A stretch of 42,404 bases of DNA from a virus. The first letter of the stretch is position 1. Each line of letters opens with the position of its first letter. The notes below the pieces were generated by a model. The model ran no database searches and was not told where the DNA came from. It saw only the letters and a program-made list of their open reading frames with translations. Positions 5,408 through 40,311 of the stretch are shown piece by piece. Location: IMG/VR virus record IMGVR_UViG_3300025818_002522, positions 1 through 42,404 of that record; one strand, given 5' to 3'. Made by a program: the position numbers and the translations under genes.

Positions 5408-5419
5408 TGTCCATACATA

Positions 5420-6391: not shown

Positions 6392-8067
6392 CCAACGGAA
6401 CAAAGGTAACTAAAAGAAATGGAAATAGTGAACCTCTCGACTTAAATAAACTACATGTAATGGTAGAAGAGGCATGTAAAGATCTTGCTGGTGTATCTGC
6501 AAGTCAGGTTGAGATTCAATCTGGTATTCAGTTTTATGATGGTATTACAACAGATGAGATTCAGGAGATTCTAATTCGTTCTGCATCAGACTTAGTAAGT
6601 TTAGATAATCCTAACTATCAGTTTGTTGCCGCACGTCTTCTTTTGTTTGCCGTTCGTAAACAACTGTATGGTCGTATGCACGAAACACCAACAGTAAAAG
6701 AGCAAGTTGAGCAATGTGTTGCTAAAGAAGTTTATGATGCAGAAATACTTGATCTGTATTCTGATGAAGAGTTTGATAAACTTCAGTCCTTTATTGATCA
6801 TGATCGGGACTACTTGTTTACTTATGCAGGTTTGCGTCAAGTCTGTGATAAGTATCTTGTGCAGGACAGGAGTAATGGTAAGGTATATGAGACTCCACAG
6901 TTCATGTATCTTCTGATTGCCGCAACCATATTCTCTAAATATCCAAAGGAAACGAGACTAGATTACGTTAGGAAATATTACGATGCAATCTCAAGACACA
7001 AAATCAACATTCCCACACCTATCATGGCAGGAGTGCGAACTCCACTTCGACAATTTGCTAGCTGTGTTCTTGTTGATGTTGATGACACCCTCGATAGCAT
7101 CTTTAGTTCTGATATGGCTATCGGCAAATATGTTGCACAAAGGGCGGGAATCGGTATCAACGCAGGTCGAATCCGTGGCATCAACAGTAAAATCAGAGGC
7201 GGAGAAGTGCAGCACACAGGTGTTGTTCCATTCCTCAAAAAATTTGAAAGCACTGTCAGATGTTGTACTCAGAATGGCATTCGCGGTGGATCGGCTACGG
7301 TACACTTCCCAATCTGGCACATCGAAATCGAAGACATCCTAGTTCTTAAGAACAATAAGGGTACAGAAGACAACCGAGTGAGGAAACTTGACTACTCAAT
7401 CCAAATTTCAAAACTTTTCTACGAACGTTTCATTAAGAATGGGGAGATTAGCTTATTCTCACCGAATGACGTACCGGGCCTCTATGATGCTTTTGGTACT
7501 GATGCATTTGACGCTTGCTATGTGGACTATGAATCAGATCAGTCTATTCCAAGAAAGACTATCGGGGCACAAGAATTATTTTTCGATCTTCTGAAAGAAC
7601 GTGCCGAAACTGGTAGAATTTATATCATGAATATTGACCATTGCAATTCTCATTCATCCTTTATGGATAAAGTTGAGATGAGCAACCTATGTGTTGCGGG
7701 TGATACAAAGATTGATGTACGAATTACTACTTCTAAAAAAGTTGATGGTAATACAACAGAAACAACTCGTCTCCCTCCTCTTGTATTTGAAATACAACAA
7801 CTTGGAGAATTTATTCAAGAAGGTCTTCCTTTGGAGTGTGTAGAAGTTCTTTCTTATGATCTTGATGGAGATCCATCTAAAGCACTTGATTATAATCAAA
7901 TTACCGCATTTGCTCAAACATCACCAAAAGCAAAAGTAATGAGAATTACTGATGAAGAAAGTGGTAAGAGTATTGTTGTTACTCCAGATCATAAAGTTTA
8001 TACCAAAAATCGTCGATATGTAATGGCAAAGCATCTTAAAGAAACTGACATTCTAAATATTATTTGA
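6388..8067 (+). CDS. nrdA: Ribonucleotide reductase alpha, N-terminal half fused to split-intein N fragment
   Basis: A 559-residue product. Residues 1-434 are class Ia NrdA: ATP-cone (about 3-90), the first redox Cys in FASCVLVDVDD, and the run-up to the active site, NSHSSFMDKVEMSNL. At residue 435 (base 7690) intein sequence begins with Cys1 in CVAGDTKIDV; the intein B-type block (VVTPDHKVYTKNRRYV) is present. The frame then stops at 8065-8067. Start is the ATG overlapping the primase stop; a TTG four codons upstream is less likely. Protein trans-splicing with the partner at 8795-9889 would rebuild an enzyme of 765 residues, close to the 761 of E. coli NrdA. It reduces ribonucleoside diphosphates for phage DNA. 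Confidence 0.9.
   Translation: MTNGTKVTKRNGNSEPLDLNKLHVMVEEACKDLAGVSASQVEIQSGIQFYDGITTDEIQEILIRSASDLVSLDNPNYQFVAARLLLFAVRKQLYGRMHETPTVKEQVEQCVAKEVYDAEILDLYSDEEFDKLQSFIDHDRDYLFTYAGLRQVCDKYLVQDRSNGKVYETPQFMYLLIAATIFSKYPKETRLDYVRKYYDAISRHKINIPTPIMAGVRTPLRQFASCVLVDVDDTLDSIFSSDMAIGKYVAQRAGIGINAGRIRGINSKIRGGEVQHTGVVPFLKKFESTVRCCTQNGIRGGSATVHFPIWHIEIEDILVLKNNKGTEDNRVRKLDYSIQISKLFYERFIKNGEISLFSPNDVPGLYDAFGTDAFDACYVDYESDQSIPRKTIGAQELFFDLLKERAETGRIYIMNIDHCNSHSSFMDKVEMSNLCVAGDTKIDVRITTSKKVDGNTTETTRLPPLVFEIQQLGEFIQEGLPLECVEVLSYDLDGDPSKALDYNQITAFAQTSPKAKVMRITDEESGKSIVVTPDHKVYTKNRRYVMAKHLKETDILNII
7690..8064 (+). mobile_element. Split intein, N-terminal half (IntN, 125 residues)
   Basis: Starts with the splicing nucleophile Cys1 (CVAGDTKI), contains the TxxH motif of intein block B (TPDHKVYT) and ends at a natural stop. 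It is similar in layout to the NrdA split inteins reported from marine phage metagenomes (Dassa and colleagues, 'fractured genes'). It lies just before the catalytic cysteine codon of nrdA. Confidence 0.88.
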
Positions 8068-8096
8068 TTTTTATAGGGAGTGTAATGTCTATATTT

Positions 8097-8104
8097 TATA
8101 AATA
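8097..8104 (+). promoter_or_regulatory. Late promoter octamer for the homing endonuclease gene
   Basis: TATAAATA occurs in the 60-base gap after the IntN stop, 23 bases before the endonuclease start. It would let the inserted endonuclease be expressed separately from the early nrd genes, typical of free-standing homing endonucleases in T4-like phages. Confidence 0.55.
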
Positions 8105-8127
8105 GTTATGAGATTACACCTCCTATT

Positions 8128-8808
8128 ATGAAAACATATATTGTGTATAAAATTACCAATAAGAAAAATAGAAAATCTTACATAGGAAAAACTGAATACT
8201 CTTTGGAGCATCGTTGGAATCGTCATTTATCATCAGCAAGAAACGGTTCTAAATTTAGATTTCATTCTGCTATTAGAAAATATGGTGAAGATTGTTGGGA
8301 CTTATCTGTGATTGAAACCTATCAAACAGAAGATGAAAACATTATTAATGAAAAAGAAACACACTTTATTAAACTTTTTGAAAGTGATACTAAAAAAGGA
8401 TATAATGCCACTTCAGGTGGAACTGGTGGTTGGATGCTTCCCAGATGCTCACAGGAGGTTCAGGAAGAGTGGAGAAACAATATTTCTATAAGAACTACTG
8501 GTCGCAATAATCCAAACTATTCAGGACTCATTGATGAACAACTTATTGAAATTGGAGTAAAGTTTACTAAAAAGTATGGGTTTATTGGTGGCAGAAAAAG
8601 AATAGTTGAGTTTGCTTTTAATGAATTGAATGTAAAATTCCCAAAACATTTTTCTAAAAATAGATTTGGAGGAAACCATCAAAACTTTTATAAATGTATT
8701 GAAAATGAAACTGGATTGGTGTATAATCCTTATTATAGAGACGAAACTCAAAGAAAACTTGCTAAACAACTTTTAGAACAAAACAGGAGAAAAAATGCTA
8801 AAGATTGA
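8128..8808 (+). CDS. GIY-YIG homing endonuclease inserted between the two nrdA halves
   Basis: A 226-residue protein. GIY-YIG catalytic region at residues 1-95: IVYKITN (GIY position), SYIGKT (YIG position), catalytic Arg in EHRWNRH, metal-binding Glu in NEKETHFIKLF and the conserved Asn in GYNATSGGTGGW. Residues 125-226 are basic and probably bind DNA (GRNNPNYSG, then GGRKRIVEFAFNEL). It has its own late promoter and overlaps the start of the downstream nrdA fragment by 14 bases. Its expected role is to cut intein-less or unfractured nrdA alleles and spread the insertion. It is not fused to the intein. Confidence 0.88.
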   Translation: MKTYIVYKITNKKNRKSYIGKTEYSLEHRWNRHLSSARNGSKFRFHSAIRKYGEDCWDLSVIETYQTEDENIINEKETHFIKLFESDTKKGYNATSGGTGGWMLPRCSQEVQEEWRNNISIRTTGRNNPNYSGLIDEQLIEIGVKFTKKYGFIGGRKRIVEFAFNELNVKFPKHFSKNRFGGNHQNFYKCIENETGLVYNPYYRDETQRKLAKQLLEQNRRKNAKD

Positions 8809-8893
8809 ATATCTCGAAGAAGAAATTCCCGTTTACGATATTACCGTAAAAGGAACACATAATTTCTTTGCAAATGACATTCTTGTCCATAAT
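8795..8893 (+). mobile_element. Split intein, C-terminal half (IntC, 33 residues)
   Basis: Begins MLKIEYLEEEIPVYDITVKG and ends with NFFANDILVHN, carrying the block F and block G signatures with the penultimate His and terminal Asn. The next codon is Cys (8894-8896), the +1 nucleophile. A good ribosome site (AGGAGA at 8785-8790) precedes the ATG inside the endonuclease gene. Confidence 0.9.
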
Positions 8894-9889
8894 TGCCAAG
8901 AAATCACTCTTCCTACTAAACCTTTACAGCACATTGATGATGAAAATGGTGAAATTGCTCTGTGTATCCTTTCTGCTATTAATGTTGGTAAAATTAGGGA
9001 TCTTGAAGATCTTGATGTTCTTTGCGATCTTGCTGTCAGGAGTCTTGATGAACTCATTGATTTTCAGGGATATCCCGTCAGAGCAGCAGAGATTGCCACA
9101 AGAGCACGTCGTTCGTTAGGTATTGGTTATATCGGACTGGCACATTACCTTGCCAAGAATGGGCATAGGTATGAAGATCCTGAAGCATGGAAGTCTGTTC
9201 ATGACTTGTCTGAAGCATTCCAATATTATCTCATTCAGGCAACTGTTAATCTTGCAAAAGAAAAAGGTGCATGTGAATACAGTCATCGCACTAAGTATGG
9301 TAATGGAATTCTTCCGATTGATACATATAAGAATGAGGTTGATGAAATAGTTCCAAATGATCTTCACTATGATTGGGAGAGTCTTAGGGCACAAGTTAAT
9401 CAATACGGAGTTAGGAACTCAACATTGTCCGCACAGATGCCTTCAGAGAGCAGTTCCGTTGTGTCAAACGCAACAAATGGAATCGAACCACCTAGAGGAT
9501 ACTTGTCCATTAAGAAGTCCAAAAAAGGACCTCTTAAGCAGATTGTTCCACAATACGGAACTCTGAAGAACAATTATGATCTTCTTTGGGAGATGAGATC
9601 CAATAAAGGATACATTAATATTGTTGCCGTAATGCAAAAGTTTTTTGATCAGGCAATTTCTGGCAATTGGAGTTACAATCCGGAACATTATCCCAATAAT
9701 GAAATCCCAGTGTCTATCATGGCACAGGATCTACTAACTACATACAAGTACGGATGGAAGACATCCTACTATCAAAATACATACGATATCAAGACTGACG
9801 AAATGGATGATTCCAATGAGTCACTTGATAGTTTAATTTCTCAAATAGAAACCGAAGAGGAGGAAGACTGTGAGTCTTGTAAGATTTAA
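8795..9889 (+). CDS. nrdA: Split-intein C fragment fused to ribonucleotide reductase alpha, C-terminal half
   Basis: A 364-residue product. Residues 1-33 are IntC; residues 34-364 are the C-terminal 331 residues of NrdA, beginning CQEITLPTKP. That Cys equals E. coli Cys439, the thiyl-radical residue, with Glu441 two residues later. The second redox Cys (GEIALCILSA), the radical-transfer Tyr pair (SYYQNT) and the C-terminal redox Cys pair (CESCKI) are all present, so the spliced enzyme should be complete. It overlaps the nrdB start by 20 bases. Confidence 0.92.
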   Translation: MLKIEYLEEEIPVYDITVKGTHNFFANDILVHNCQEITLPTKPLQHIDDENGEIALCILSAINVGKIRDLEDLDVLCDLAVRSLDELIDFQGYPVRAAEIATRARRSLGIGYIGLAHYLAKNGHRYEDPEAWKSVHDLSEAFQYYLIQATVNLAKEKGACEYSHRTKYGNGILPIDTYKNEVDEIVPNDLHYDWESLRAQVNQYGVRNSTLSAQMPSESSSVVSNATNGIEPPRGYLSIKKSKKGPLKQIVPQYGTLKNNYDLLWEMRSNKGYINIVAVMQKFFDQAISGNWSYNPEHYPNNEIPVSIMAQDLLTTYKYGWKTSYYQNTYDIKTDEMDDSNESLDSLISQIETEEEEDCESCKI

Positions 9890-22016: not shown

Positions 22017-22976
22017 ATGAAACTCAAAGCAATCGCAGCAGCTACAGCAACTATTCCTCTTATGGTTGCCTGTGGTGGATCTAAAGAAACATTTCAAATA
22101 AGTGGAGCAGGTGCTACATTCCCTGCTCCACTTTATACAGCATGGTTTCAAACCATGGCAAGTGAAACTGGCAATCAAGTAAACTATCAAGCAGTTGGTA
22201 GTGGTGCTGGTGTCCGTCAGTATATGGCTGGTACAGTTGACTTTGGTGCCAGTGATGGTGCTGTAAGTGATAAGAAGCAAGATATCCCCATGATTCATAT
22301 TCCTATGACTGGTGGTGCTATTGTTCCTGCTTACAATATGCCTGGTTGTGATGTCAAGATGACACAGACACAACTTGCTGATGTATATCTTGGTAAGATT
22401 ACTAACTGGTCCACCTTCGGGTGTGCTGATGCTAAGATCCTTCCTGTATTCCGTTCTGATGGTAGTGGCACCACAAAAGGTTTCACTAACTCACTATCAG
22501 CATTCTCTCCCGAATGGAAAGAGAATGTCGGCACAGGTAAGGCAGTAAAGTGGCCTACTGGTGTTGGTGGTAAAGGTAACTCTGGTGTTGCCGCACAAGT
22601 TAAACAAGTTCCTGGTGCCATTGGTTATCTAAACTATGGTTATGTGAATGGTGGTAAGTTTCAACAAGTATCCTTACAAAACAAAGCAGGTAACTATGTA
22701 AAAGCAAATGCTGAAACATCTGCAGCAGGTCTATCAAGAATTGTCTTGGACGATCAACTTCGTGGTGCTGATGCTAACCCTGCTGGTGCCAATGCATACC
22801 CTATTGTCTCCCTTACTTGGGTCCTAGCATACCCTGAGTCTAAGACTGGGGTGAAAGAAACTCTTCGTTATATGTTGAGTGAGAAATCACAGGCAATGTC
22901 TGATAGTCTTGGTTATGTTCCACTCCCTGAGGACCTTCGTCAGAAAGCACTTGCTGCTGTTGACAGTATCGAATAA
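22017..22976 (+). CDS. pstS: Phosphate ABC transporter substrate-binding protein
   Basis: A 319-residue PstS. Lipoprotein leader with lipobox-like LMVACGG (Cys19), then the conserved GAGATFPAPLY and RSDGSGTTKGF that line the phosphate pocket, and SDGAVSDK. Length fits the family. It has no pstABC partner in the window, so it must use the host transporter, as described for pstS in marine cyanophages. Transcribed with paralogue 2 from the Pho-box-like promoter, so probably induced by phosphate starvation through host PhoR/PhoB. Confidence 0.95.
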   Translation: MKLKAIAAATATIPLMVACGGSKETFQISGAGATFPAPLYTAWFQTMASETGNQVNYQAVGSGAGVRQYMAGTVDFGASDGAVSDKKQDIPMIHIPMTGGAIVPAYNMPGCDVKMTQTQLADVYLGKITNWSTFGCADAKILPVFRSDGSGTTKGFTNSLSAFSPEWKENVGTGKAVKWPTGVGGKGNSGVAAQVKQVPGAIGYLNYGYVNGGKFQQVSLQNKAGNYVKANAETSAAGLSRIVLDDQLRGADANPAGANAYPIVSLTWVLAYPESKTGVKETLRYMLSEKSQAMSDSLGYVPLPEDLRQKALAAVDSIE

Positions 22977-25896: not shown

Positions 25897-26895
25897 ATGA
25901 AAGTTGCTTTAATAACAGGAATTACTGGGCAAGATGGTTCATACTTAGCAGAACTTCTCCTTGAAAAAGGTTATGAAGTTCATGGTATTGTTCGTCGTGC
26001 TTCTTTGATCAATACTCATCGCATTAATCACATTTATGAACAAATTAATCTTCACTATGGAGATCTGACTGACTCCACTAATCTTGTAAGAGTTATTCAG
26101 CAGGTTCAACCAGATGAGATTTATAATCTGGGAGCACAAAGTCATGTAAAGGTATCGTTTGAGATGCCTGAGTATACGGGTCAGACAGATGCTATAGGCA
26201 CCCTGAGAGTGCTTGAGGCAGTCCGTTTGCTTGGTATGGAGAATAGGGTTCGTATTTATCAGGCATCCACCAGTGAACTCTATGGTTTAGTACAAGAAAC
26301 TCCGCAGACTGAAACTACACCTTTCTATCCACGTTCTCCTTATGGTGTTGCAAAACTCTATGGGTACTGGATAGTAAAGAACTATCGTGAATCATACGGA
26401 ATGTATGCCTGTAGTGGTATTCTTTTTAATCATGAGTCTCCAAGACGTGGTGAGACCTTTGTAACTCGTAAGATTACAATGGGTCTCAAAGCAATCTCTG
26501 AAGGAAAGCAGGAGTGTTTATATCTGGGCAATCTTGATGCACTTCGTGATTGGGGACATGCTACAGATTATGTTGAAGCAATGTGGTTAATGCTTCAACA
26601 AGAAGAACCCGAAGACTTTGTGATTGCTACTGGTAAACAATATTCAGTTCGTCAGTTTGTTGAGGAATCTGCACCTTATTTTGGTATGAATATCCGATGG
26701 GAAGGTTCTGGTCTTGAGGAAGTTGGTATTGATTCTGATGGTAAAACGGTTATCAGAATTGACTCTAAATATTTCCGTCCTGCTGAAGTAGAGACCTTAT
26801 TAGGTGATGCCTCTAAGGCAAAGAAAAAATTGGGTTGGGAACCTAAAACTTCTTTTAAACAATTGGTTGAGGACATGTGTAATCATGAATGCTGA
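25897..26895 (+). CDS. gmd: GDP-mannose 4,6-dehydratase
   Basis: A 332-residue extended short-chain dehydrogenase. Rossmann motif [15 protein letters not shown] at residue 8, the GMD signature SELYG near 127, YxxxK in [12 protein letters not shown], and [16 protein letters not shown], which is diagnostic for GDP-mannose dehydratases. Converts GDP-D-mannose to GDP-4-keto-6-deoxy-D-mannose. Overlaps wcaG by 11 bases, giving the complete two-step GDP-L-fucose route from host GDP-mannose. Confidence 0.96.
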
Positions 26896-27835
26896 TAGTA
26901 AAATTTACGTTGCTGGTAACACTGGATTAGTGGGATCAGCAATTGTTCGTATGCTTCATATGAAGGGTTATACGAATATTATTTCTTCACCTTCTTCTCA
27001 TTGGGACTTGAGAAGACAAGAAGATGTTGAGAGGTTTTTTGAAATCAATGAACCTGAATATGTTTATCTTGCAGCTGCAAAGGTTGGTGGTATTGGTGCA
27101 AATAAAGATTATCCTGGACACTTCATTTATGATAATCTGATGATTCAGTCGAACATCATTCATACTGCATATAAGTTTGGTGTTAAAAAACTTCTGTTCC
27201 TTGGTTCTTCCTGCATCTATCCAAAGATGTGCGAACAACCAATCAAAGAAGAATACCTGATGACAGGTCCTTTGGAACCAACTAATGATGCTTATGCTAT
27301 TGCTAAGATTGCTGGTATTAAGATGTGTCAGGCATATCGTCAACAGTATGGATTCAATGCTATCTCGTTAATGCCTACAAATCTATATGGTCCTAATGAT
27401 AACTTTGATTTAGAGTCATCTCATGTTCTTCCTGCGATGATTGCAAAGTATCATCATGCAAAGACTGAAGGATATACTATTGATATGGGTGGTCCCTGGT
27501 GGCCAGATGTAAAACTTTGGGGTGACGGTTCGGCACGGAGAGAGTTTCTTCACGTTGATGACCTTGCCGAAGCATGTTATACTTGTATGAAATATTATGA
27601 TTCTTCAGAACCAATTAATGTTGGAACAGGAGAAGACATTACTATCAAGGAACTTGCAGGTATTGTTTCTGATGTGGTTGGGTATCCAGGTCAAACAACA
27701 TGGGATACTTCAAAACCTAATGGAACTTCACGTAAAGTTCTTAATGTGGACAAGATAAAGTCTCTTGGTTGGGAACCAAAGATTGATTTGAAAGAAGGTA
27801 TTAAATCAACTTACGAATGGTATAAAGATCAATGA
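26885..27835 (+). CDS. wcaG: GDP-L-fucose synthase
   Basis: A 316-residue protein (start [20 protein letters not shown]). Rossmann motif [10 protein letters not shown], family signature GGIGANK, the catalytic SSCIYP and YAIAKIAG (YxxxK). Epimerises and reduces GDP-4-keto-6-deoxymannose to GDP-L-fucose. The ORF is open further upstream within gmd, but that is out of homology; the ATG at 26885 is chosen. The GT10-like gene at 30031 is the probable user. Confidence 0.95.
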
Positions 27836-28503
27836 AATTTCTTACATTTTTAAATTCTGGATGTCATGATATTTGTTTGAATATGTTAAGGTCTGCTGAA
27901 AAAGTGGGCATTGATATGGATGACTTTATTATTGCATGTATGGATGAAGACGTTTATAAGTCTTTTATTCTTGAAGGTTATAAAGGTGCTTTTCTTTATA
28001 TGGATAGTAACTTAAAAGAATATCAGGATTGGACTTTTGATAGTAATAGTGGATTTAGAAATGTGGTTCGTCACAAGTGGAAGATCATTAATCAGGTCCA
28101 CAAAGAACATCCTAATCTGATGTGGGTTGACACTGACATTGTATTCAAAGAAAATCCTGTTGAGATTCTGACCGGTCATGAAGAAGTATTATTTCAAACT
28201 GATGCTCCTGGGTCTACAATCTGCACTGGCTTTATGGTATTTAATGAGACTCCCGAGTGCCGTCAGTTAGTAGAAGAATGTGGTGCAGATGATTCTGATG
28301 ATGATCAACTAATCATGAATCGCATTGCACTTACAAAATATAATGATAATATAGCATTATTATCTGAGGATCTATTTCCTAATGGTAATGTGTATTATCA
28401 GCAAGGCAAAAAAGAAAATGCAATGATTGTTCACAATAATTGGATGGTCGGTGTAGAAACCAAAATCAATAAGTTTAAGGAGGAAGGACTGTGGTTTATT
28501 TGA
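27832..28503 (+). CDS. Nucleotide-diphospho-sugar glycosyltransferase (GT77-like)
   Basis: A 223-residue GT-A type enzyme. LMWVDTDIVF near residue 96 is the DxD metal/nucleotide site, and STICTGFMVFNETP and DSDDDQLIMN follow as in the DUF/GT77 nucleotide-diphospho-sugar transferase family. Overlaps wcaG by the usual ATGA. Sugar and acceptor unknown. Confidence 0.75.
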   Translation: MKFLTFLNSGCHDICLNMLRSAEKVGIDMDDFIIACMDEDVYKSFILEGYKGAFLYMDSNLKEYQDWTFDSNSGFRNVVRHKWKIINQVHKEHPNLMWVDTDIVFKENPVEILTGHEEVLFQTDAPGSTICTGFMVFNETPECRQLVEECGADDSDDDQLIMNRIALTKYNDNIALLSEDLFPNGNVYYQQGKKENAMIVHNNWMVGVETKINKFKEEGLWFI

Positions 28504-29345
28504 AAGAAGATTATCTGAGACCAAAGTCTCTTACACCAACATATCCTCCCTATCATCAAGGAGAATATCTAGAGGAATATTTTTACAGTCATTATCAACA
28601 ATTAGAAGATAAACCAGAAAGAGAATATATTGATATCTTCTGGTCAAATATTTTTTGTAATAAGATTTGGGCAGGACAACCATATCCTGATCTGCAAAAT
28701 CTTATGTATGACACACTAAGTGCAGATGGATCTTACTTTACTATTTGTCAACAAGACGATGGACCCTTTGAAGATTTTCCTGAGGATACTATGATCTTCT
28801 GTGCCGGTGGTAATCGTAAGAAAGGAAATGTAATTCCCATTCCATTGGTATGTTCTTCTATTCCGGAAACTCCTAAACAAGAGCAAAAATACTTTGCTTC
28901 CTTTATTGGATCCAATACTTATTGGGTGAGAACCGATATGATGAAAGCATTCCGTGGAAAGGATGACTGTCTCGTCAAAGCAGGAAACTGGGATATTAAT
29001 GTTGGAGAAGAAAAACTGAATAACTTCCTTGATGTTATGTCTGCTTCTAAATTCTCTCTATGTCCTAGAGGATATGGAACGACAAGTTTCAGACTCTATG
29101 AGTCCTTCCAATTGAATACCGTTCCTGTTTATATTTCTGATGACCATGCACTTCCTTGGTCTGACGAATTGGATTGGGAAGAATTTTGTGTTATAATTGA
29201 TGATGATAATATTGGAAATACTTACGATATTTTGAAAGGTATTTCTGATGATACATACAATGAGATGTTGAAGAAAGGTAAAGAACTTTATCAGGATTAC
29301 TTTTCACTTCAAGGTGTCTTTGAGAACATTATTAAAAGAGTGTAA
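28491..29345 (+). CDS. Exostosin-like glycosyltransferase (GT47-like)
   Basis: A 284-residue protein starting at GTG behind AGGAGG. The C-terminal part, SKFSLCPRGYGTTSFRLYES then NTVPVYISDD, is the exostosin/GT47 signature for nucleotide-sugar binding. It probably adds a sugar to the surface glycan; the donor cannot be read. Overlaps the previous gene by 13 bases and the next by 1. Confidence 0.8.
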   Translation: MVYLKEDYLRPKSLTPTYPPYHQGEYLEEYFYSHYQQLEDKPEREYIDIFWSNIFCNKIWAGQPYPDLQNLMYDTLSADGSYFTICQQDDGPFEDFPEDTMIFCAGGNRKKGNVIPIPLVCSSIPETPKQEQKYFASFIGSNTYWVRTDMMKAFRGKDDCLVKAGNWDINVGEEKLNNFLDVMSASKFSLCPRGYGTTSFRLYESFQLNTVPVYISDDHALPWSDELDWEEFCVIIDDDNIGNTYDILKGISDDTYNEMLKKGKELYQDYFSLQGVFENIIKRV

Positions 29346-30034
29346 TGAATAAAATCTTTGTTTGTCATCATTCACCACTGACACATAGAAAAGAATATTT
29401 GATTAATTTCTTTTCATCTAAAAATATTGAAGTGGAGTGGGTTGAAAATTTCTCTCCAGAAGAAATTGTTGAAACTTATGATGAAGTGATAGGGACGAAA
29501 GATTTAATCATTAATCCTAATGTTCCTGGTGTTCAGCAGAATCAATATACGTTGTATGAAAATGCTGGTAAAAGAGTTTCTATCCCTGAACTTTCATTAT
29601 ATTTGAAACATCAATATTGTTTTGAACAACAGATTGAAAATGAATATGAAACAATAGTTATTTTGGAAGATGATATTATGCTTCCGGATAACTTTGAAGA
29701 ATATTTAAATGTTTGTTGTGAAGAGTTTGATAATTATAACCCAAAATTAGATTGTGTAATGTTGGGTAGTTGTTTTGGTTTTACATCTCCATATATTAAA
29801 GAGAATAGACTTATTCATTATGGGGAAAATCAATTGACAAGATGTACTCATGCAATGATGTTTTCTTTAGATGCTACTAAGAAGATAATACAAAACCTTT
29901 ATCCAATAAACTGGCCAATAGATTTTAAATTAAATGAAATTATTATTAAAGAAAATTTGAAAGTTGGTTGGACAGAACCATCACTGCAACAAGCATCTCA
30001 CTTAAATTTAGATAGATCCTTTATTCAATCATGA
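29345..30034 (+). CDS. Glycosyltransferase family 25-like
   Basis: A 229-residue protein. VILEDDIMLPDNFEEY (EDD motif) near residue 107 and LYPINWPIDFKLNEI towards the end match the GT25 lipooligosaccharide transferases (LPS galactosyl or glucosyltransferases). Ends 4 bases into the next gene. Likely extends the core or O-chain type glycan. Confidence 0.78.
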   Translation: MNKIFVCHHSPLTHRKEYLINFFSSKNIEVEWVENFSPEEIVETYDEVIGTKDLIINPNVPGVQQNQYTLYENAGKRVSIPELSLYLKHQYCFEQQIENEYETIVILEDDIMLPDNFEEYLNVCCEEFDNYNPKLDCVMLGSCFGFTSPYIKENRLIHYGENQLTRCTHAMMFSLDATKKIIQNLYPINWPIDFKLNEIIIKENLKVGWTEPSLQQASHLNLDRSFIQS

Positions 30035-30888
30035 AAATAACATTCTCTGACTTCTGGCAGTATCCAAAAGCATTTGATCCAAATAACAATTTCTTTATTC
30101 ACATCATTCGTGATTTGTTTGAGGATGTTGAGGTTGTAGAACCCGAAGATGCTGATGTAATGTTCTTCAGTTTGTTTGGGAATGAGAATGGTAGATATAA
30201 AGATTGTAAAAAAATATTTTTTACGGGTGAAAATGTAAGACCCAATTTTAAGAGGTGTGATTACTCTTTAACTTTTGATGCTGATGAGCATGAGGGTAAA
30301 AATTTTAGACTTCCTTTGTGGTATCTTTACATTGATTGGTTTGAAGTCAATAGTTATGATAATCCTGATTGGTTGATTCCAGAATCATATCTATACAATC
30401 ATAATGAATTTACACAAAAGAAGAAAGACAAATTTTGTTCCATAGTTTATGGTAAACAAATTGAATCTAGAATTAATGCAATTCAAAATATATCCTCTAA
30501 CTACAAACAGGTAGATGTTTTTGGGAAAGCAAATCCGAATTACTATTTGCCAGACGGTGAAAAATATAAGTTAGATTTGATTTCTAATTATAAGTTTTCA
30601 TTGTGTTATGAGAACTCTGTAACTCCTGGATATCATACGGAGAAGTTACTCCACGGAAAAGTTGCAGGAAATATTCCAATTTATTATGGAGATAAAAGTA
30701 TAGGTGAAGATTTTAATCCAGATTGTTTTATTAATGCAGTTGATATGTCTGATGAAGAATTGATTCAAAAAATCATTGAATTAGATCAATCAGATAATTT
30801 GTATAATAAAATGGCAAAAGAACCAATCTTTACCGAGAAAGTATCCCTGGATAATATCAAAGACTTTTTGTTTAAATCTTTATCATGA
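30031..30888 (+). CDS. Fucosyltransferase family 10-like
   Basis: A 285-residue protein with the GT10 pattern: FTGENVRPNFKRCDY at about 64-77 and FSLCYENSVTPGYHTEKLL at about 189-207, the conserved nucleotide-binding signature of alpha-1,3/1,4-fucosyltransferases. GDP-L-fucose made by gmd and wcaG is the natural donor, so the three genes form a complete fucosylation module. Acceptor unknown. Confidence 0.85.
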   Translation: MKITFSDFWQYPKAFDPNNNFFIHIIRDLFEDVEVVEPEDADVMFFSLFGNENGRYKDCKKIFFTGENVRPNFKRCDYSLTFDADEHEGKNFRLPLWYLYIDWFEVNSYDNPDWLIPESYLYNHNEFTQKKKDKFCSIVYGKQIESRINAIQNISSNYKQVDVFGKANPNYYLPDGEKYKLDLISNYKFSLCYENSVTPGYHTEKLLHGKVAGNIPIYYGDKSIGEDFNPDCFINAVDMSDEELIQKIIELDQSDNLYNKMAKEPIFTEKVSLDNIKDFLFKSLS

Positions 30889-31613
30889 ATATTCATTTAG
30901 TTTCTTTTGGTGCACCATTTCATAGTTTTTCTAGAGCACACTCTAGAGTGTTACAGAATGCTGAAAATTTTGGTGTTTTTTCTAGCATAAATTTATTTTC
31001 GGAAAGGGATATATTTAATTTTTGTCCGGAGATAATTCCCTATAAAAAGTTTTTATCCTCAACCAGAGGTTATGGGTATTGGATGTGGAAGTCTTTTTTG
31101 GTTTCTAGAATGATGGAGTTGTCTTCTGATGATGATTTAATATGCTATGCTGATATTGGATGCACATTTAATGACGCAGGTATTGCAAGGTTTGGAGAAT
31201 ACTGTGCTTTAACTTCAGAATATGGTTCTTTATGTTTTGACCTGGGACATTTAGAACGGGCATATACTAAAATGGATACCTATAAGAAAATATTTCCAGA
31301 AACTCTTGATCATTTAAATACAGGACAAAGATGTGCAACTACCTTTCTCCTTAAGAATACTCAAGACAATAGAAATATTTTTGAGGAAATAAAAAAAATA
31401 TCTGTAGAAAATAATCATTTTTATATTACTGATGTTCCATCACAAGAACAGAACCACGAAGAGTTTAAAGAACATAGGCACGATCAATCAGTTTTTTCAC
31501 TCATGAGTAAGAAGTATAAATTCTATTGTATTCCTGATGAAACATATTGGGCACCTAACTGGAATGTTAAAGGTAAGGATTATCCAGTATGGGCTACTAG
31601 AAATAAATTTTGA
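30885..31613 (+). CDS. Glycosyltransferase-like protein
   Basis: A 242-residue protein. RGYGYWMWKSFLVS, then DLICYADIGCTFND (DxG in place of DxD) and HRHDQSVFSLM match a family of putative sugar transferases in capsule clusters. Enzyme role is inferred. Coupled to both neighbours. Confidence 0.65.
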   Translation: MNIHLVSFGAPFHSFSRAHSRVLQNAENFGVFSSINLFSERDIFNFCPEIIPYKKFLSSTRGYGYWMWKSFLVSRMMELSSDDDLICYADIGCTFNDAGIARFGEYCALTSEYGSLCFDLGHLERAYTKMDTYKKIFPETLDHLNTGQRCATTFLLKNTQDNRNIFEEIKKISVENNHFYITDVPSQEQNHEEFKEHRHDQSVFSLMSKKYKFYCIPDETYWAPNWNVKGKDYPVWATRNKF

Positions 31614-31621
31614 AATCTAAA

Positions 31622-32413
31622 ATGAGAACAGCACTACTACTTTGTGGACAAATGAGAACCTTTGATCATCCAAAGGTTCTAGAGCACACTAATAGATTGA
31701 GTGAAAAATTTAACTGTGATGTCTTCATATCTACATGGAAAAATCGTGGTGTTTCTATGTGGAGTGTTAGATCTCAGAATCCTGAGTTATACAAAGATGA
31801 CGTTGATGATGTCATAACCACCAGTGATATTGAAAAGTTTGTAAATGTAAAGGACTATGTGATATCAGATTATGATGAGTATCTTGATAATCTTTGCTCC
31901 GATGAAATAAAATCTTTATTGCATAGATGGTATAATAATAAAGAGTATGGTTTGGTGGCAAGCAGTAGTCCAGAATTCTATACAATGCATCTTGCTGCTC
32001 AGATGAAGAGAAAATATGAAAGTGATAATTCATTTACATATGATGCTGTAATAAGAAGTCGTCCTGACTTTTTACATTTACATACTGATATTGAAGAATA
32101 TTTTGATGATTTGGAGAATGTGTGTTATCATATTAACACTGGAAAAACATATTCTCCCAATAGAATTTACTCTATGTTCTTGTTGGGAAATTCCAAAACA
32201 ATGGATATTCTTTGTAATTGTTGGGAAGATTATGGCAAACTAGCAGAAACAAATCATTCTATTAACTATGGTAAATATGATGCATGTAGAATGATGTATG
32301 CACAATGTATTGAGAATGATATTAGAATTCAAAGTTTTGATAAAGTTCTTGGAGATTGTTTCAGACTTGAAAATTATAGTGATTATGAATTTTTTAAAAA
32401 CTGGTACTCATAG
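31622..32413 (+). CDS. WavE-like putative glycosyltransferase (paralogue A)
   Basis: A 263-residue protein starting MRTALLLCGQMRTFDHPKVL; a TTG four codons upstream overlaps the previous stop. Shares with genes at 33514 and 34246 a small Rossmann-like N-terminus, a central SxW segment (DVFISTW) and DAVIRSRPDFLH (RxRxD). This RSRPD/R(T)D signature is found in the DUF-type LPS core transferases. Substrate unknown. Confidence 0.6.
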   Translation: MRTALLLCGQMRTFDHPKVLEHTNRLSEKFNCDVFISTWKNRGVSMWSVRSQNPELYKDDVDDVITTSDIEKFVNVKDYVISDYDEYLDNLCSDEIKSLLHRWYNNKEYGLVASSSPEFYTMHLAAQMKRKYESDNSFTYDAVIRSRPDFLHLHTDIEEYFDDLENVCYHINTGKTYSPNRIYSMFLLGNSKTMDILCNCWEDYGKLAETNHSINYGKYDACRMMYAQCIENDIRIQSFDKVLGDCFRLENYSDYEFFKNWYS

Positions 32414-33517
32414 ATGACTGAAAGAAACATTTGTATTTTAGATAATAAAGCATCCGTAAAAAAAATATATACTTTGGAAAGTTTCCCTGTCTTTATGGGA
32501 TGTGTTGATACACCTATAGAAGATGATATCTTTTTTGATCAGGACTGGGGTGTTTCTGATAACGGATTGATTCAATTGAAAACTTTAATCGATCCAAATA
32601 TTTTGTATGAAAATTCTCATACTCCCGGTAGTGTTGGAAAGATATGGCAACAACATCATAAAAGATTCTTTGAATTTATCATTAAAAACTCTGATAATAT
32701 TGATAGGTATCTTGAAATAGGGGGAGCATCTGGAAGTCTATGGAAAAACTTTTCCACTTTAGATTCTGAATTTAGTTATGAAATCATTGAGCCATCACAT
32801 CAAGAGTCTTCTGATTCTAGGTTAAAATATATTAGAGGATTTTATGAAACGCAATCTTTTAGTAAAAAATATAAATGTATTATTCATTCTCATGTTTTTG
32901 AACATGCATATAATCCTATAGATTTTCTTAAAAAAATATTTGAAGATCTTGCAGATGATGGTGTTCAGTTTATATCAATACCAAATATGAGACATTGGTT
33001 GAAACAAGGGTATACGAATACGATAAATTTTGAGCATACTTATTATCTTGATGAGTTTGTTTTGGAGCACGTATTATCAAAAGCAGGATTTTCTATTGAC
33101 AAGAAAGTAGTCGATAAACATTCTATCTTTGTAAAGGCAATTAAATGTAGTGATATTGTTGATGTTGATGTAAATTTTGAATATTCTAGAGACTTGTTTT
33201 TAGATTACATCTATAAGTTAGAGAGTGATGTGTCCAATATACTTAATAATATAGAAGGTAATGCTTATCTTTTTGGTGCTCATGTTTTCTCTCAAACCCT
33301 TTTGAATTTTGGAATAGATGAAAGTATAATCGTATCCGTATTAGATAATGATATAAAAAAGCAAGGTAAAAGATTATACGGAACTAATTTAAAAATACAA
33401 TCACCTGAGGTTCTTGGTGATATGAATAATCCAACTGTGATACTTCGTGCAGGAGTGTATACTGAAGAAATAAAAACTCAAATATTAAATATAAATTCAA
33501 CAACACAATTTGTATGA
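32414..33517 (+). CDS. SAM-dependent sugar methyltransferase, C-methyltransferase type
   Basis: A 367-residue protein. The Rossmann SAM motif is YLEIGGASGSLWKNF near residue 99; the middle is a class I methyltransferase domain and the C-terminal third resembles the extra domain of sugar C-methyltransferases (GAHVFSQTLLNFG, VILRAGVYTEEI). The N-terminal zinc Cys pairs typical of that family are not evident, which is odd. Likely methylates a deoxysugar nucleotide or glycan. Confidence 0.7.
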   Translation: MTERNICILDNKASVKKIYTLESFPVFMGCVDTPIEDDIFFDQDWGVSDNGLIQLKTLIDPNILYENSHTPGSVGKIWQQHHKRFFEFIIKNSDNIDRYLEIGGASGSLWKNFSTLDSEFSYEIIEPSHQESSDSRLKYIRGFYETQSFSKKYKCIIHSHVFEHAYNPIDFLKKIFEDLADDGVQFISIPNMRHWLKQGYTNTINFEHTYYLDEFVLEHVLSKAGFSIDKKVVDKHSIFVKAIKCSDIVDVDVNFEYSRDLFLDYIYKLESDVSNILNNIEGNAYLFGAHVFSQTLLNFGIDESIIVSVLDNDIKKQGKRLYGTNLKIQSPEVLGDMNNPTVILRAGVYTEEIKTQILNINSTTQFV

Positions 33518-34930: not shown

Positions 34931-36358
34931 ATGAATATTTTATTTCCAATTGCTGGTCTTGGGACTAGGTTTAAAAATAATGGATATATCGATTCCAAAC
35001 CATTTGTAAATTTTAAAGGCAAATCCTTGATCGAGTGGTCTCTTTCTTCTTTAAAGATTGCTGGCAAGTACTTTGTCATCGTTAATGGATTAGAAAAAGA
35101 ATATATTGATATTATTAATAACATTAAAGAAAAGTATTATCTTAATTTAGAAATTGTTGACATTGGAAAGTCCACACTCGGTCAAGCAGAAACTTGTTTG
35201 TTGGGGATTAAGAAAGCAAATATCAATACTTCCGAACCATTAATCATAACTAATTGTGATCAATATACTCCTTGGAACTCTAACAAGTTTTTAAGTTTTA
35301 TTAGAAACAATGATCCTGATGGAGTTGTAAGTACATACGATCATCCAAACATTGAGGTAGGATCTGATAGTCCTTATAGTCATATTGAACTTGATGAAAA
35401 TGGTTATGCAACTCGTCTTGCTGAAAAGATTGCCATATCTCCTTTAGCACTTAATGGCATATTCTATTGGAAAGAGGGAAAATCTTTTATCCAAAGTGCC
35501 GAACAATTAATGTCTGATGATACTGATGCTGGATGGTCAACTGGTAAAATGTCCTGTGTTAAAGAAAAGTATGTATCTCTTACTTATAATTACCTAATTT
35601 CTGAAGGTAAAAAAATTATGAATTATCATATGGAAGGTGATGAGTTTGTCTCTCTCGGTAGTCCTAACGATATCATGCTTCATATTAAACGTCAGAATGT
35701 AATGCAGGCAGTTGAAGATCTTCGTAATGGTAAACCCATTGTTATGGTCGATGATTATGATCGTGAATTTGAAGGTGATATTGTTCTTGCAGCAGAAAAA
35801 GCAACGGCAGAGAATCTTCTCTTCGCAATGCGTCATGCAAGAGGTTTGATGTGCCTTCCTTGCACACAAGAGAAACTGGATCAGTTTGGTATTCCTATGA
35901 TGAACTCTAACGGGTGTGATGAGTTTGGAACTCCTTTTGCTACTAGTATTGATGCTGTTGAGGGAGCTACAACTGGTATGTCTGTTAATGATCGTGTAGC
36001 AACTATCTCTACTTTCTTATCAGATTCTTCTGAACCAAAATCCCTTGCTCAACCAGGACACCTGTTCCCTCTTCGTGCCCGTCCAGGACTTCTTAGTGAG
36101 AGACGTGGACATACTGAAGGTTGTGTAGAGATTCTGAAACTTGCTGATATGAAGCAAGTTGGAGTAATCATTGAGATTATGGATGAGTATGGTAAAATGA
36201 TCAAAGGAGACAATCTGAAACAATTTGCTGATATCTACAATCTTACATTTGTCTCTATTGAGGAACTTCATGATGAAGTTTACAATAAAAATTCTGTAGG
36301 TAGTGTTCCATTGTCTGTTGTTGATGAAGAAACACTTGAGTCTATGGCAAAGATTTAA
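34931..36358 (+). CDS. Nucleotidyltransferase-RibB fusion enzyme
   Basis: A 475-residue bifunctional protein. Residues 1-254 are a sugar-phosphate nucleotidyltransferase: IAGLGTRF near 8 (nucleotide-binding loop), TNCDQY near 108, LGSPND at 242. Residues 256-450 are 3,4-dihydroxy-2-butanone-4-phosphate synthase (RibB): VDDYDREFEGD at 273-283, TTGMSVNDR at 347, PGHLFPLRA at 375 and RGHTEGCVE at 392-400, with the residues that bind ribulose-5-phosphate and metal. RibB normally stands alone or is fused to RibA in riboflavin synthesis. The junction is tight with no linker. Usual RibB reaction: ribulose-5-phosphate to 3,4-dihydroxy-2-butanone-4-phosphate and formate. An Asn or Asp in DRENEGD is Phe here. 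Confidence 0.85.
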   Translation: MNILFPIAGLGTRFKNNGYIDSKPFVNFKGKSLIEWSLSSLKIAGKYFVIVNGLEKEYIDIINNIKEKYYLNLEIVDIGKSTLGQAETCLLGIKKANINTSEPLIITNCDQYTPWNSNKFLSFIRNNDPDGVVSTYDHPNIEVGSDSPYSHIELDENGYATRLAEKIAISPLALNGIFYWKEGKSFIQSAEQLMSDDTDAGWSTGKMSCVKEKYVSLTYNYLISEGKKIMNYHMEGDEFVSLGSPNDIMLHIKRQNVMQAVEDLRNGKPIVMVDDYDREFEGDIVLAAEKATAENLLFAMRHARGLMCLPCTQEKLDQFGIPMMNSNGCDEFGTPFATSIDAVEGATTGMSVNDRVATISTFLSDSSEPKSLAQPGHLFPLRARPGLLSERRGHTEGCVEILKLADMKQVGVIIEIMDEYGKMIKGDNLKQFADIYNLTFVSIEELHDEVYNKNSVGSVPLSVVDEETLESMAKI

Positions 36359-37320
36359 TGGAATTTACGACTAGAGCATATAATAGTTTTACTCTAAATC
36401 CTCAAACCAAAGCTAGTGTTATTAAGACGAGTGAAGAAGATAGATTGAAGGGAGAAGCAAACTACTATTTGGATCTTCCTAAAGATTTAAAAGTATTCTT
36501 CCCAAGACTAATTGATTGCAACTTACAATCTCCATACTCTTTAGAGTTAGAATATTATGCTTATAATAATCTTGGAAATGTAATGGTATCATCAGACTAT
36601 GATGATATTTTTTGGGAAAATGCATTTGATTTTCTTTTGGGATATATTAATTGTTATAAAAATTCTAAATCAATTGATGCCAATCGTAGAGATTCTCTGT
36701 TGATGTTTATTGATAAGACAGAGAAAGAGTATGTCAATCTGATGTATAACTTCGATTTCTTTCAAAACTTATTGAAAGAAGAAGAATTTCTTTTGAATGG
36801 AAAGATACTTAAATCCTTTGATACTATATGGGGAGAGATAAAAAAATTTATTGAGACAAAATTAATCGAAGATAAATTTTATTTTATTCATGGTGACCTC
36901 TGCTTTAGTAATATTTTGTATGGAGTAAATTCTATTACAAATGATCTAATTCTTAAGATGATTGATCCTAGAGGTATGTTTGGTGAAACCAAATATTATG
37001 GTGATCCTTATTACGATCTGGCAAAAATTTCTCACTCTTGTAATGGTGGGTATGAGTATTTCATTTATGATAAGTTTAATATAAATGTAATAGATAATCA
37101 GTTCGATTTAAAGTTTGAAAACGAATCTAGTAAACAAAATATTAATAATAAGTTTGTAGATTTGGTCAATAGATTTGGTTTTGATTATAAGAAAATAAGA
37201 TTGATTGAGGGATGTATATTTATTGGTATGTGTGCTAGACATTATGATAGTCTAGAAAGACAGAAGGCAATGTTTATTACTGGACTGAATATTTTGAATG
37301 AAATCTATGAGACACTATAA
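36358..37320 (+). CDS. Aminoglycoside phosphotransferase/choline-kinase-like kinase
   Basis: A 320-residue protein with kinase signatures: FIHGDLCFSNILYG (HGDxxxxN) near residue 178 and KMIDPRGMFGE followed by YYGDPYYDLAKISHS near 203. These are the catalytic loop and DPxG metal-binding site of the APH/CotH-type kinases. Overlaps both neighbours. In this context it probably phosphorylates a small sugar or polyol before nucleotide activation. Substrate unknown. Confidence 0.75.
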   Translation: MEFTTRAYNSFTLNPQTKASVIKTSEEDRLKGEANYYLDLPKDLKVFFPRLIDCNLQSPYSLELEYYAYNNLGNVMVSSDYDDIFWENAFDFLLGYINCYKNSKSIDANRRDSLLMFIDKTEKEYVNLMYNFDFFQNLLKEEEFLLNGKILKSFDTIWGEIKKFIETKLIEDKFYFIHGDLCFSNILYGVNSITNDLILKMIDPRGMFGETKYYGDPYYDLAKISHSCNGGYEYFIYDKFNINVIDNQFDLKFENESSKQNINNKFVDLVNRFGFDYKKIRLIEGCIFIGMCARHYDSLERQKAMFITGLNILNEIYETL

Positions 37321-37663
37321 ATTTTGTTTTGATCTTGACGGAACTCTCTGCCATATAAGAAAGGAAGGTGAACATTATAGTGATGTAAAACCAATTCCTG
37401 GAGCAATAGAGACTCTTCAAAAACTAAAAGCAGAAGGTCATTACATTATTATAATGACTGCTAGGAACATGGTTACTCATAATAATAACTTGGGTAAAAT
37501 TATTGCCAAGCAATCACCTATTGTGGTAGAATGGCTAGATAAACACGGTATTCCTTATGATGAACTTCATTTTGGAAAACCAGTTGCAGATTTTTATGTT
37601 GACGACAAAGCAGTCAGACTAGAAAACTGGAAAACTTTTAACGAAACTTTAAAACAATTATGA
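37307..37663 (+). CDS. HAD-superfamily phosphatase, capsule type
   Basis: A 118-residue minimal HAD enzyme: FDLDGTL (DxDGT) near residue 8, IIMTARN (motif II Thr/Ser) and FYVDDKAVR (motif IV). The ATG at 37307 is preferred over the upstream ATG at 37298. Typical of small HAD hydrolases in polysaccharide clusters that act with nucleotidyltransferase and kinase genes. Substrate unknown. Confidence 0.8.
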   Translation: MRHYKFCFDLDGTLCHIRKEGEHYSDVKPIPGAIETLQKLKAEGHYIIIMTARNMVTHNNNLGKIIAKQSPIVVEWLDKHGIPYDELHFGKPVADFYVDDKAVRLENWKTFNETLKQL

Positions 37664-38469
37664 GAGACTTTTTCTTTGATACTGCTAATGTAGATTTCAT
37701 AAAATCTACTATGGATAAGTATGGATCCGATATTAATCCAAAATTCGTTCGTGGTGTGACTACAAACCCAAATGCCTTTAGTAAGGTAGATAAGTATCAC
37801 CTAGATGAATGGTTGGATCATGCGGTAGTCATGGGCAAATTGGTTGCAGATATCCGTGGAGATAATGAAGGTGAGATTCATATTCAAGCACCTTATTCTC
37901 ATCTTGATCCTGAAGTAATTCTTGAGTATGCTAAGATTATTACTAATGCAACTCAAGGAACTTGTAAGGTTGGTATGAAAATTCCTCCCTATCAAAAAGC
38001 TTTAGAATATGTTGATCAATTTAATGAATATGTAATCACTAATGTTACTGGTCTTGCAGATTCTTCAACTGCACTAAAGTGTTGTACTTATGACGTTGGA
38101 TATATCAGCATCATTCCTGGTCGCATGGAAGAGGTTGGAATTGATGCACAATCTGCTATTGCTTTTGTGAATCAGTGTAACTTTGGAAATACTGAAATCA
38201 TCACTGGTAGTCAAAGAACTACCGAACAGATCATTTATTCTTTCTATCTTGATACTGTTCCTACCATTGGTGAGAAGTGCTGGGCAGACATTTTCCAAGG
38301 AGATAACTTCCAACGCATTCTTAATATGGAGTATGGTTACGAATCAGTTGGTCCTTTTAGTCCAACTATCTCTGATGATAATATTAATCTATCTCTTGCT
38401 TTCTTTGAACAGATGAATAAACTCGGAGATACTGCCCGTAAAGATTTGGAACAAAAAATTTCCCAATGA
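37660..38469 (+). CDS. talC: Transaldolase-like enzyme (TalC/FSA family)
   Basis: A 269-residue protein. FFFDTANVDFIK at residue 4, GVTTNPNAF at 32, the Schiff-base Lys in KVGMKIPPY (about residue 107) and YISIIPGRM with the conserved Arg are the TalC/fructose-6-phosphate aldolase family signature. It is about 50 residues longer than the usual 215-220 and sits inside the glycan cluster, not beside the photosynthesis genes. It may serve central carbon metabolism, as talC does in other cyanophages, or sugar-nucleotide synthesis with the RibB fusion. Confidence 0.8.
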   Translation: MRDFFFDTANVDFIKSTMDKYGSDINPKFVRGVTTNPNAFSKVDKYHLDEWLDHAVVMGKLVADIRGDNEGEIHIQAPYSHLDPEVILEYAKIITNATQGTCKVGMKIPPYQKALEYVDQFNEYVITNVTGLADSSTALKCCTYDVGYISIIPGRMEEVGIDAQSAIAFVNQCNFGNTEIITGSQRTTEQIIYSFYLDTVPTIGEKCWADIFQGDNFQRILNMEYGYESVGPFSPTISDDNINLSLAFFEQMNKLGDTARKDLEQKISQ

Positions 38470-39416
38470 AGATAGCTTTTCATGATAATGCCCTCTCTTT
38501 GAGGGGGACTACTGTAGCAATTTATGATTGGGCATATTGGACTAGACACTATCTTGGTCTTGATCCAATTATCATGTATGATAATAAAAATAAATTTAAT
38601 GATGTAGGAGTTATTGAAAAATTTTCAAAAGAGTTTTCTGTTTTTTCATATAATGATAAGTCTGAAATAGATAAGATTCTATCTCAAAATAAATGTGATG
38701 CTTTCCTTATGGAGAAGGGTGGTAAACCGGACGGAATTATTTCTACAGTAGCAAAGAATTTGGTCAATGCTATTTCGGTATGTTCTGTCTCCGATATTCA
38801 TGGTGATGTATATGCCATGGGATCAAAGTGGTTATCAAAGATAACTGATTATCAGATTCCATATGTACCATATATGGTACATCTTCCGGATGTTGAGGAA
38901 GATATGAGAGAAGAACTATCTATCCCTAAAGACTCTTTGGTTTTCGGTAGAAATGGTGGATGGGAAACTTTTGATTTGCCTTTTGTAAAGCAGGCAATAA
39001 AACAAGTATTGGATGAAAGATCTGATGTCTGGTTTATTTTTCAGTTCACTGAACCTTTTATTGAACATGAGAGAGTGATCTACTTACCTGGAACTTCTGA
39101 TATGAATATTAAGGTGAGGTTTATTAATACTTGTGATGCTATGCTTCATGCTAGGCATGTTGGTGAATCGTTTGGACTTTCCTGTGCAGAGTTTTCAATT
39201 AGAAATAAACCTATCATTACTTATGAAAAATCGCCGGAAAGAAATCATATAGATACACTTGGAGAAAAGGGGATATACTTTGAAACTGAATCTGATATTT
39301 TACATATTCTGAAAAATTTAGACAAGGTGGAAATAAATTCTTTGCAATGGAATTGTTATCAAGACTACACTCCAGAAAAAGTTTGCCAAAAATTTAAGGA
39401 AATTTATTTGAATTGA
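38466..39416 (+). CDS. GT-B fold glycosyltransferase (GT4-like)
   Basis: A 316-residue protein. FGRNGGWETFDLPFVKQ near residue 160 and HARHVGESFGLSCAEFSI near 235 give the GT4 ESFG donor-site motif. The start is coupled to talC. Donor and acceptor unknown. Confidence 0.75.
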   Translation: MKIAFHDNALSLRGTTVAIYDWAYWTRHYLGLDPIIMYDNKNKFNDVGVIEKFSKEFSVFSYNDKSEIDKILSQNKCDAFLMEKGGKPDGIISTVAKNLVNAISVCSVSDIHGDVYAMGSKWLSKITDYQIPYVPYMVHLPDVEEDMREELSIPKDSLVFGRNGGWETFDLPFVKQAIKQVLDERSDVWFIFQFTEPFIEHERVIYLPGTSDMNIKVRFINTCDAMLHARHVGESFGLSCAEFSIRNKPIITYEKSPERNHIDTLGEKGIYFETESDILHILKNLDKVEINSLQWNCYQDYTPEKVCQKFKEIYLN

Positions 39417-39417
39417 T

Positions 39418-40311
39418 ATGAAATCATTAGTAACAGGGGGAGCAGGATTCATTGGATCTCACATTGTAGATAAACTTCTTGAGATGGGTCATGAAGTTGT
39501 TTGTTATGATAATGAGAGTGCAGAATCTAATGAAGATTTTTATAGAAATCCTAAGGCTTACAATATAAAAGGTGATATTAGAGACTATAAGTTATTGAAA
39601 AACTCAATGACTAATATCGATTATGTGTTTCATCTTGCTGCCGAGTCTAGAATTCAACCTGCTATTTTGAATCCTATTGAGGCAGTCAGTGTGAACTGTG
39701 TAGGCACGGTTACTGTTCTTCAGTGTGCCCGTGAGGCAGGTGTAAAGAAAGTAATCTATTCTTCTACTTCATCTGGTTATGGATTCAATGAACCTCCCAA
39801 TGATGAACTTCAGAGTGATGATTGTCTGAATCCTTATTCAGTATCTAAAGTTACTGGTGAAAAACTTTGTAAGATGTATACTAACTTGTTTGGATTGAAA
39901 ACAGTTTTTCTCAGATACTTCAATGTATATGGAGAAAGGCAACCTCTGAAGGGTCAATATGCCCCTGTAATAGGCATCTTCTTACGTCAACGTGCAGGTA
40001 AAGAATCTCTTACAATCGTTGGGGATGGAGAGCAACGTAGAGATTTTACGCATGTTTCTGATGTTGTGTCTGCTAATATTTTGGCAGCAACAAAAGAAGT
40101 TCATGATATGAATTATGGACAGTTATATAACGTTGGTAATGGAGTAAATTATTCCATCAATGAAATTGCCGATGCCATTTCTAGTAATCAAATAAACATT
40201 CCACCAAGAATTGGAGAGTCAAGAGTAACTCTTGCGAATAATAATAAATTAAAAAGAACCTTTGAGTGGGAACCAAAAGTAAACTTAATGGATTGGATTT
40301 CTGATCAATGA
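39418..40311 (+). CDS. NAD-dependent sugar epimerase/dehydratase
   Basis: A 297-residue extended SDR: GGAGFIGSH at residue 7, SSTSSGYG near 114 and YSVSKVTGEK (YxxxK) near 138, NVYGERQ near 168. Closest in pattern to UDP-glucose/UDP-GlcNAc 4-epimerases (GalE/WbpP). The substrate cannot be fixed from sequence. Gene context suggests it makes a surface-glycan precursor. Confidence 0.85.
   Translation: MKSLVTGGAGFIGSHIVDKLLEMGHEVVCYDNESAESNEDFYRNPKAYNIKGDIRDYKLLKNSMTNIDYVFHLAAESRIQPAILNPIEAVSVNCVGTVTVLQCAREAGVKKVIYSSTSSGYGFNEPPNDELQSDDCLNPYSVSKVTGEKLCKMYTNLFGLKTVFLRYFNVYGERQPLKGQYAPVIGIFLRQRAGKESLTIVGDGEQRRDFTHVSDVVSANILAATKEVHDMNYGQLYNVGNGVNYSINEIADAISSNQINIPPRIGESRVTLANNNKLKRTFEWEPKVNLMDWISDQ

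Follow-up and report, generated by a model that had tools for sequence, protein, structure and literature searches.

The RibB domain encoded in the virus fragment analysed here probably begins a yet-undescribed activated-sugar pathway and not vitamin B2 synthesis. The window, the whole 42,404-nucleotide stretch that was analysed (IMG/VR record IMGVR_UViG_3300025818_002522, positions 1 to 42,404), is a fragment of a marine cyanobacterial virus close to Synechococcus phage S-SKS1. There is strong support for a module of five enzymes, namely RibB, a nucleotidyltransferase (NTase), an APH-fold kinase, a HAD phosphatase and a divergent transaldolase-like aldolase (Table 1). This module is real and conserved, its function is putative, and it appears to be a variant NDP-sugar pathway that opens with an unexpected enzyme. 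The reading that we consider fairly likely as a whole is a phage-borne activated-sugar pathway in which RibB is the entry enzyme and the aldolase, kinase, HAD phosphatase and NTase follow; the fusion of the first and last of these enzymes would be a recurrent convenience, and the module more interesting than the fusion.

Table 1. Features of the RibB module and its glycan cluster in the window
Feature	Coordinates	Strand	Basis
GDP-mannose dehydratase, GDP-fucose synthase-like SDR, GT47, GT25, GT10 fucosyltransferase, others	25897..32413	+	Pfam
C-methyltransferase-like protein	32414..33517	+	PF13489, PF08484
NTase-RibB fusion protein, 475 aa	34931..36358	+	One ORF, ATG start
Sugar-1-phosphate nucleotidyltransferase domain, residues 1-250	34931..35680	+	PDB 4evw by sequence and fold; motifs
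Continuous helix joining the domains (predicted), residues about 245-265	35666..35725	+	AlphaFold2 model
RibB / DHBP synthase domain, residues 256-447	35696..36271	+	PF00926, TIGR00506, fold, catalytic residues
APH-fold small-molecule (sugar) kinase	36358..37320	+	Structure model fold match; no Pfam
HAD phosphatase, EcbF/BcbF-like	37298..37663	+	TIGR01689 E=5.6e-27, under cut-off
Divergent transaldolase/FSA-family aldolase	37660..38469	+	PF00923 E=1e-12
GT1-like glycosyltransferase and NAD-dependent sugar epimerase	38466..40311	+	Pfam

The fusion is real, with an intact NTase and an intact RibB in one frame. The original prediction, that a sugar nucleotidyltransferase is joined to a complete RibB domain, agrees with a single 475-residue open reading frame that matches Pfam DHBP_synthase (PF00926) over residues 259-447 (E=1.1e-63). 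The N-terminal half has a weak match to Pfam NTP_transf_3 (E=2.9e-4, under cut-off) and matches PDB 4evw at 3e-8 by sequence and 9e-17 by fold (TM 0.79 to the target). In the alignment the GxGTR...KP, D110 and EK motifs are retained among relatives, and this signature, together with the Rossmann-like NTP-transferase fold of the 4evw match, places the domain with the NDP-sugar pyrophosphorylases. Both domains are intact in the AlphaFold2 model (mean pLDDT 87, pTM 0.67), with an uncertain domain orientation. An assembly artefact, or the undetected frameshift between two ordinary genes that had been named as a result that would overturn the prediction, is ruled out: the same reading frame is found at 76-92% identity in IMG/VR loci and in the S-SKS1 isolate, dN/dS of about 0.02-0.23 over both domains indicates purifying selection, stronger on RibB, and further NTase-RibB fusions exist in divergent phages (L063, L064, L069, L071). 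The fusion had also been described as new-looking, but its sequence is already deposited: the S-SKS1 homologue SWZG_00042 (GenBank AGH31555.1) is a full-length fusion with 92% identity to the window and the same neighbours, and phrog_3980 covers fusion residues 1-475 (E=3e-162, PHROG search). These are annotated as DHBP synthase only and as unknown, respectively, and the papers found describe neither the module nor its function. A literature search on RibB in phages or in sugar clusters returned nothing relevant, and a jumbo-phage review covering cyanophage sugar clusters does not mention RibB or transaldolase in them.

The RibB domain scores 183.6 bits against TIGR00506, above the cut-off of 177.5, and structure comparison of the model gave a fold rmsd of 1.3-1.7 Å to several RibB structures. 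The catalytic and metal-binding positions, scored in E. coli numbering as D33, R37, E38, E40, D42, C67, D113, H136, R150, H153, T154, E155 and E174, are kept in the window and in 25 of 25 module members, one D33E apart. Near the active site, module RibBs share R/Q at E. coli position 151 and LL at 146-147, unlike most canonical enzymes, which carry A/T/S and GV there; a single origin of the module RibBs is favoured, with weak support (54/100). These module-wide residues could point to a RibB-family domain that has changed its reaction, using another ketose phosphate or acting as another lyase while feeding the same NDP-sugar pathway, but with the listed catalytic residues kept throughout and the fold this close to solved RibB structures, a changed reaction seems improbable.

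With its active site intact, RibB might instead serve to supply riboflavin/FMN in infected cells, as an auxiliary metabolic gene that became joined by chance to an unrelated sugar gene, since its product DHBP (3,4-dihydroxy-2-butanone 4-phosphate) could feed the lumazine synthase of the host. This is very unlikely given the genomic context. The complete S-SKS1 genome and 11 large phage contigs contain neither RibA (PF00925) nor lumazine synthase (RibH, PF00885), in keeping with the earlier claim that no other riboflavin gene accompanies the fusion; RibB is linked to the kinase, aldolase, HAD phosphatase and NTase across 21 lineages; and a bacterial genome with the module, Planctomycetota MAG G001 (locus L097), retains a second, canonical RibBA separate from the module RibB, if the binning is correct. 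On the same three grounds a housekeeping riboflavin role was rejected.

Clustering of the kinases at 70% identity gave 104 lineages. RibB and the aldolase are both present in 21 of these 104 lineages and both absent from the other 83, never one alone (Fisher p 2e-22, a descriptive value only, as the lineages are related and independence is overstated), and the HAD phosphatase and the NTase each occur in 20 of the 21 lineages with RibB. The kinase adjoins RibB in nearly all loci that contain RibB, and the same 38 viral contigs were recovered by kinase-, aldolase- and RibB-anchored scans. Module genes overlap or abut in a near-constant order, as in one operon; in a few phages (L085, L048) the order differs or some of the genes lie apart. 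Beyond the window the module occurs in 20 other lineages, 19 viral and one bacterial, and in the collections searched it is carried almost only by phages. The sole bacterial case, L097, has RibB fused to an NTase-kinase, followed by an NTase, the HAD phosphatase and the aldolase. Among 294 genomes of its phylum, the aldolase profile scored strongly only in the L097 genome (E=8e-112), and 36 stood at ordinary transaldolase scores. Searches with this profile at E<=1e-20 or 1e-30, run without an internal positive control, gave no match in about 1,280 sampled genomes from four phyla, and none of the 386 Cyanobacteriota genomes sampled has the module aldolase.

In most lineages with RibB, NTase and RibB are separate genes. 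In L047, for example, a separate NTase (5215-5955) and RibB (5962-6576) precede the kinase, HAD and transaldolase-like genes known from the window; in L049-L052 the kinase, another NTase, the HAD phosphatase and the aldolase come after RibB. On the RibB tree the fusion must have been gained or lost about three times, at least two of these changes being forced by well-supported branches; the domains have thus been joined or split repeatedly, and the fusion was rejected as an essential feature. Repeated joining of the two domains would fit their membership in a shared pathway. The original prediction had a four-carbon RibB product channelled by the fusion straight to nucleotide activation, and this is not upheld: RibB and NTase are separate genes in most lineages, and three further enzymes, the kinase, the HAD phosphatase and the aldolase, accompany them. 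Its broader suggestion, that RibB is diverted to nucleotide-sugar synthesis, is retained and has good support from gene context in the 21 lineages.

The kinase has no Pfam match at 0.001, and its profile has no match among PDB sequences. Its structure model (pLDDT 92) resembles the folds of methylthioribose kinase, glucosamine kinase and maltokinase with Z 18-19, a fold match that alone is no proof of function. In the aldolase, K107 is invariant in 20 sequences and aligns with the lysine of solved transaldolases, as expected of the Schiff-base lysine, and the phosphate-site and TTNP residues are invariant in the same set. At some positions the active site presumably departs from those of transaldolase and FSA alike, and its substrates therefore cannot be read off. 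Since S-SKS1 encodes an ordinary transaldolase, TalC, elsewhere in its genome (E=2.5e-51, compared with only 2.2e-13 for its module aldolase), the module aldolase is an extra enzyme, and a tblastn search of phage records returned S-SKS1 as its sole match. An ordinary cyanophage TalC auxiliary metabolic gene was rejected as its identity on the basis of this separate TalC, the weak score and the tblastn result.

The aldolase bears directly on whether a four-carbon unit could be activated, as first proposed. DHBP itself would be rearranged, the kinase adding and the HAD phosphatase removing a phosphate, and the aldolase would only supply or recycle pentose phosphates. RibB and NTase are indeed fused or adjacent in several lineages, but the linkage of the aldolase is as strict as that of RibB, an ordinary TalC for pentose-phosphate flow is already present in S-SKS1, and DHBP has no free hemiacetal for anomeric phosphorylation, all of which make this four-carbon route unlikely. 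It is more likely that RibB catalyses the first step and the NTase the last, with a step forming a carbon-carbon bond between them, and the activated sugar then need not be four-carbon.

For the favoured pathway with RibB as its entry enzyme, the intact active site suggests that the domain would convert host ribulose-5-phosphate to DHBP and formate. The strict linkage of the transaldolase-like class I aldolase suggests that this enzyme would form a carbon-carbon bond with DHBP; the resulting sugar phosphate would be larger and probably branched or deoxy. The acceptor that transaldolase normally uses is glyceraldehyde-3-phosphate, of which DHBP is the methyl-ketone analogue; DHBP could therefore take its place and receive a dihydroxyacetone unit, making a C-methyl-branched ketohexose phosphate one possible product. 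By analogy with phage RB69 and with heptose activation, the kinase would then add a second phosphate, the HAD phosphatase would remove the original one and the NTase would make the NDP-sugar. Glycosyltransferases of the same cluster (GT10, GT25, GT47 and others) may transfer the sugar to a virion or host-surface glycan. No isomerase to turn a ketose into an aldose before anomeric phosphorylation was seen, and this is the weakest point of the scheme. The more specific proposal, an undescribed phage pathway that makes a branched-chain NDP-sugar, with a transaldolase-family enzyme joining DHBP to another carbon unit before activation, and so provides a new type of glycan residue, is made tentatively, as somewhat short of probable.

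Several other genes of the window and of the related loci were noted. An SDR family is present in 17 of 23 representatives with RibB. A family with no Pfam match (MKIALLICGQMRTFDHPKVL...; window 31610-32413, L182 7725-8516), possibly a glycosyltransferase, is present in 18 of the 23. A relative of the C-methyltransferase-like gene, which in the window lies in the same cluster, adjoins the aldolase gene in L049-L052. Elsewhere in the window, a homing endonuclease (8128-8808) with a GIY-YIG-type family among its matches interrupts a ribonucleotide reductase large-subunit gene (6376-9889), both halves of which match phrog_84, and positions 22017-22976 encode a phage-borne phosphate transporter subunit (phrog_5385).

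RibB is annotated by default as a dedicated vitamin B2 enzyme, and its probable role here is to open a nucleotide-sugar pathway. If so, DHBP would be a new carbon source for sugar assembly, the aldolase would have a new specificity, a new glycan residue would be likely on virions or infected cells, and caution would be called for in naming a phage ribB a riboflavin auxiliary gene. As the isolation host of S-SKS1 is Synechococcus WH7803, the pathway may be testable now.

Finally, the module can be compared with known systems. It shares the RibB fold and catalytic residues with the RibB and RibBA of riboflavin synthesis, but its RibB lies in a sugar-activation module without the company of RibA. 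The GDP-heptose route activates a sugar made from sedoheptulose-7-phosphate by GmhA, using the HddA kinase, the GmhB phosphatase and the HddC guanylyltransferase; the logic of kinase, HAD phosphatase and nucleotidyltransferase is that of the module, whereas the kinase family and the GmhA-made input are different. The kinase, HAD and NTase families of the module also form a trio that many bacteria and some archaea share (L098-L176), in which the kinase usually carries an additional NTase domain. This trio presumably makes an activated sugar and resembles the RB69 set described below; unlike the module, it has neither RibB nor the module aldolase. The genome scan with the kinase found 465 kinase relatives, of which 80 loci were kept, and Nitrosopumilus and Lokiarchaeota MAGs were among the carriers. 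The ara-hmC region of phage RB69, linked to hydroxymethylcytosine DNA modification, has been proposed to supply UDP-arabinose through ORF055c (arabinose-5-phosphate isomerase), ORF53_52c (NTase-kinase) and ORF051c (HAD) (PMC6024577). The RB69 kinase and HAD are homologous to those of the module (56 and 63 bits to the module profiles), both sets include a nucleotidyltransferase, and both would start from ribulose-5-phosphate, but RB69 has an isomerase where the module has RibB, and no aldolase. A model of the RB69 isomerase had no match in the window or in the loci with RibB. As the isomerase and RibB share ribulose-5-phosphate as substrate, RibB, with the aldolase, appears to hold the entry position that the isomerase has in RB69.
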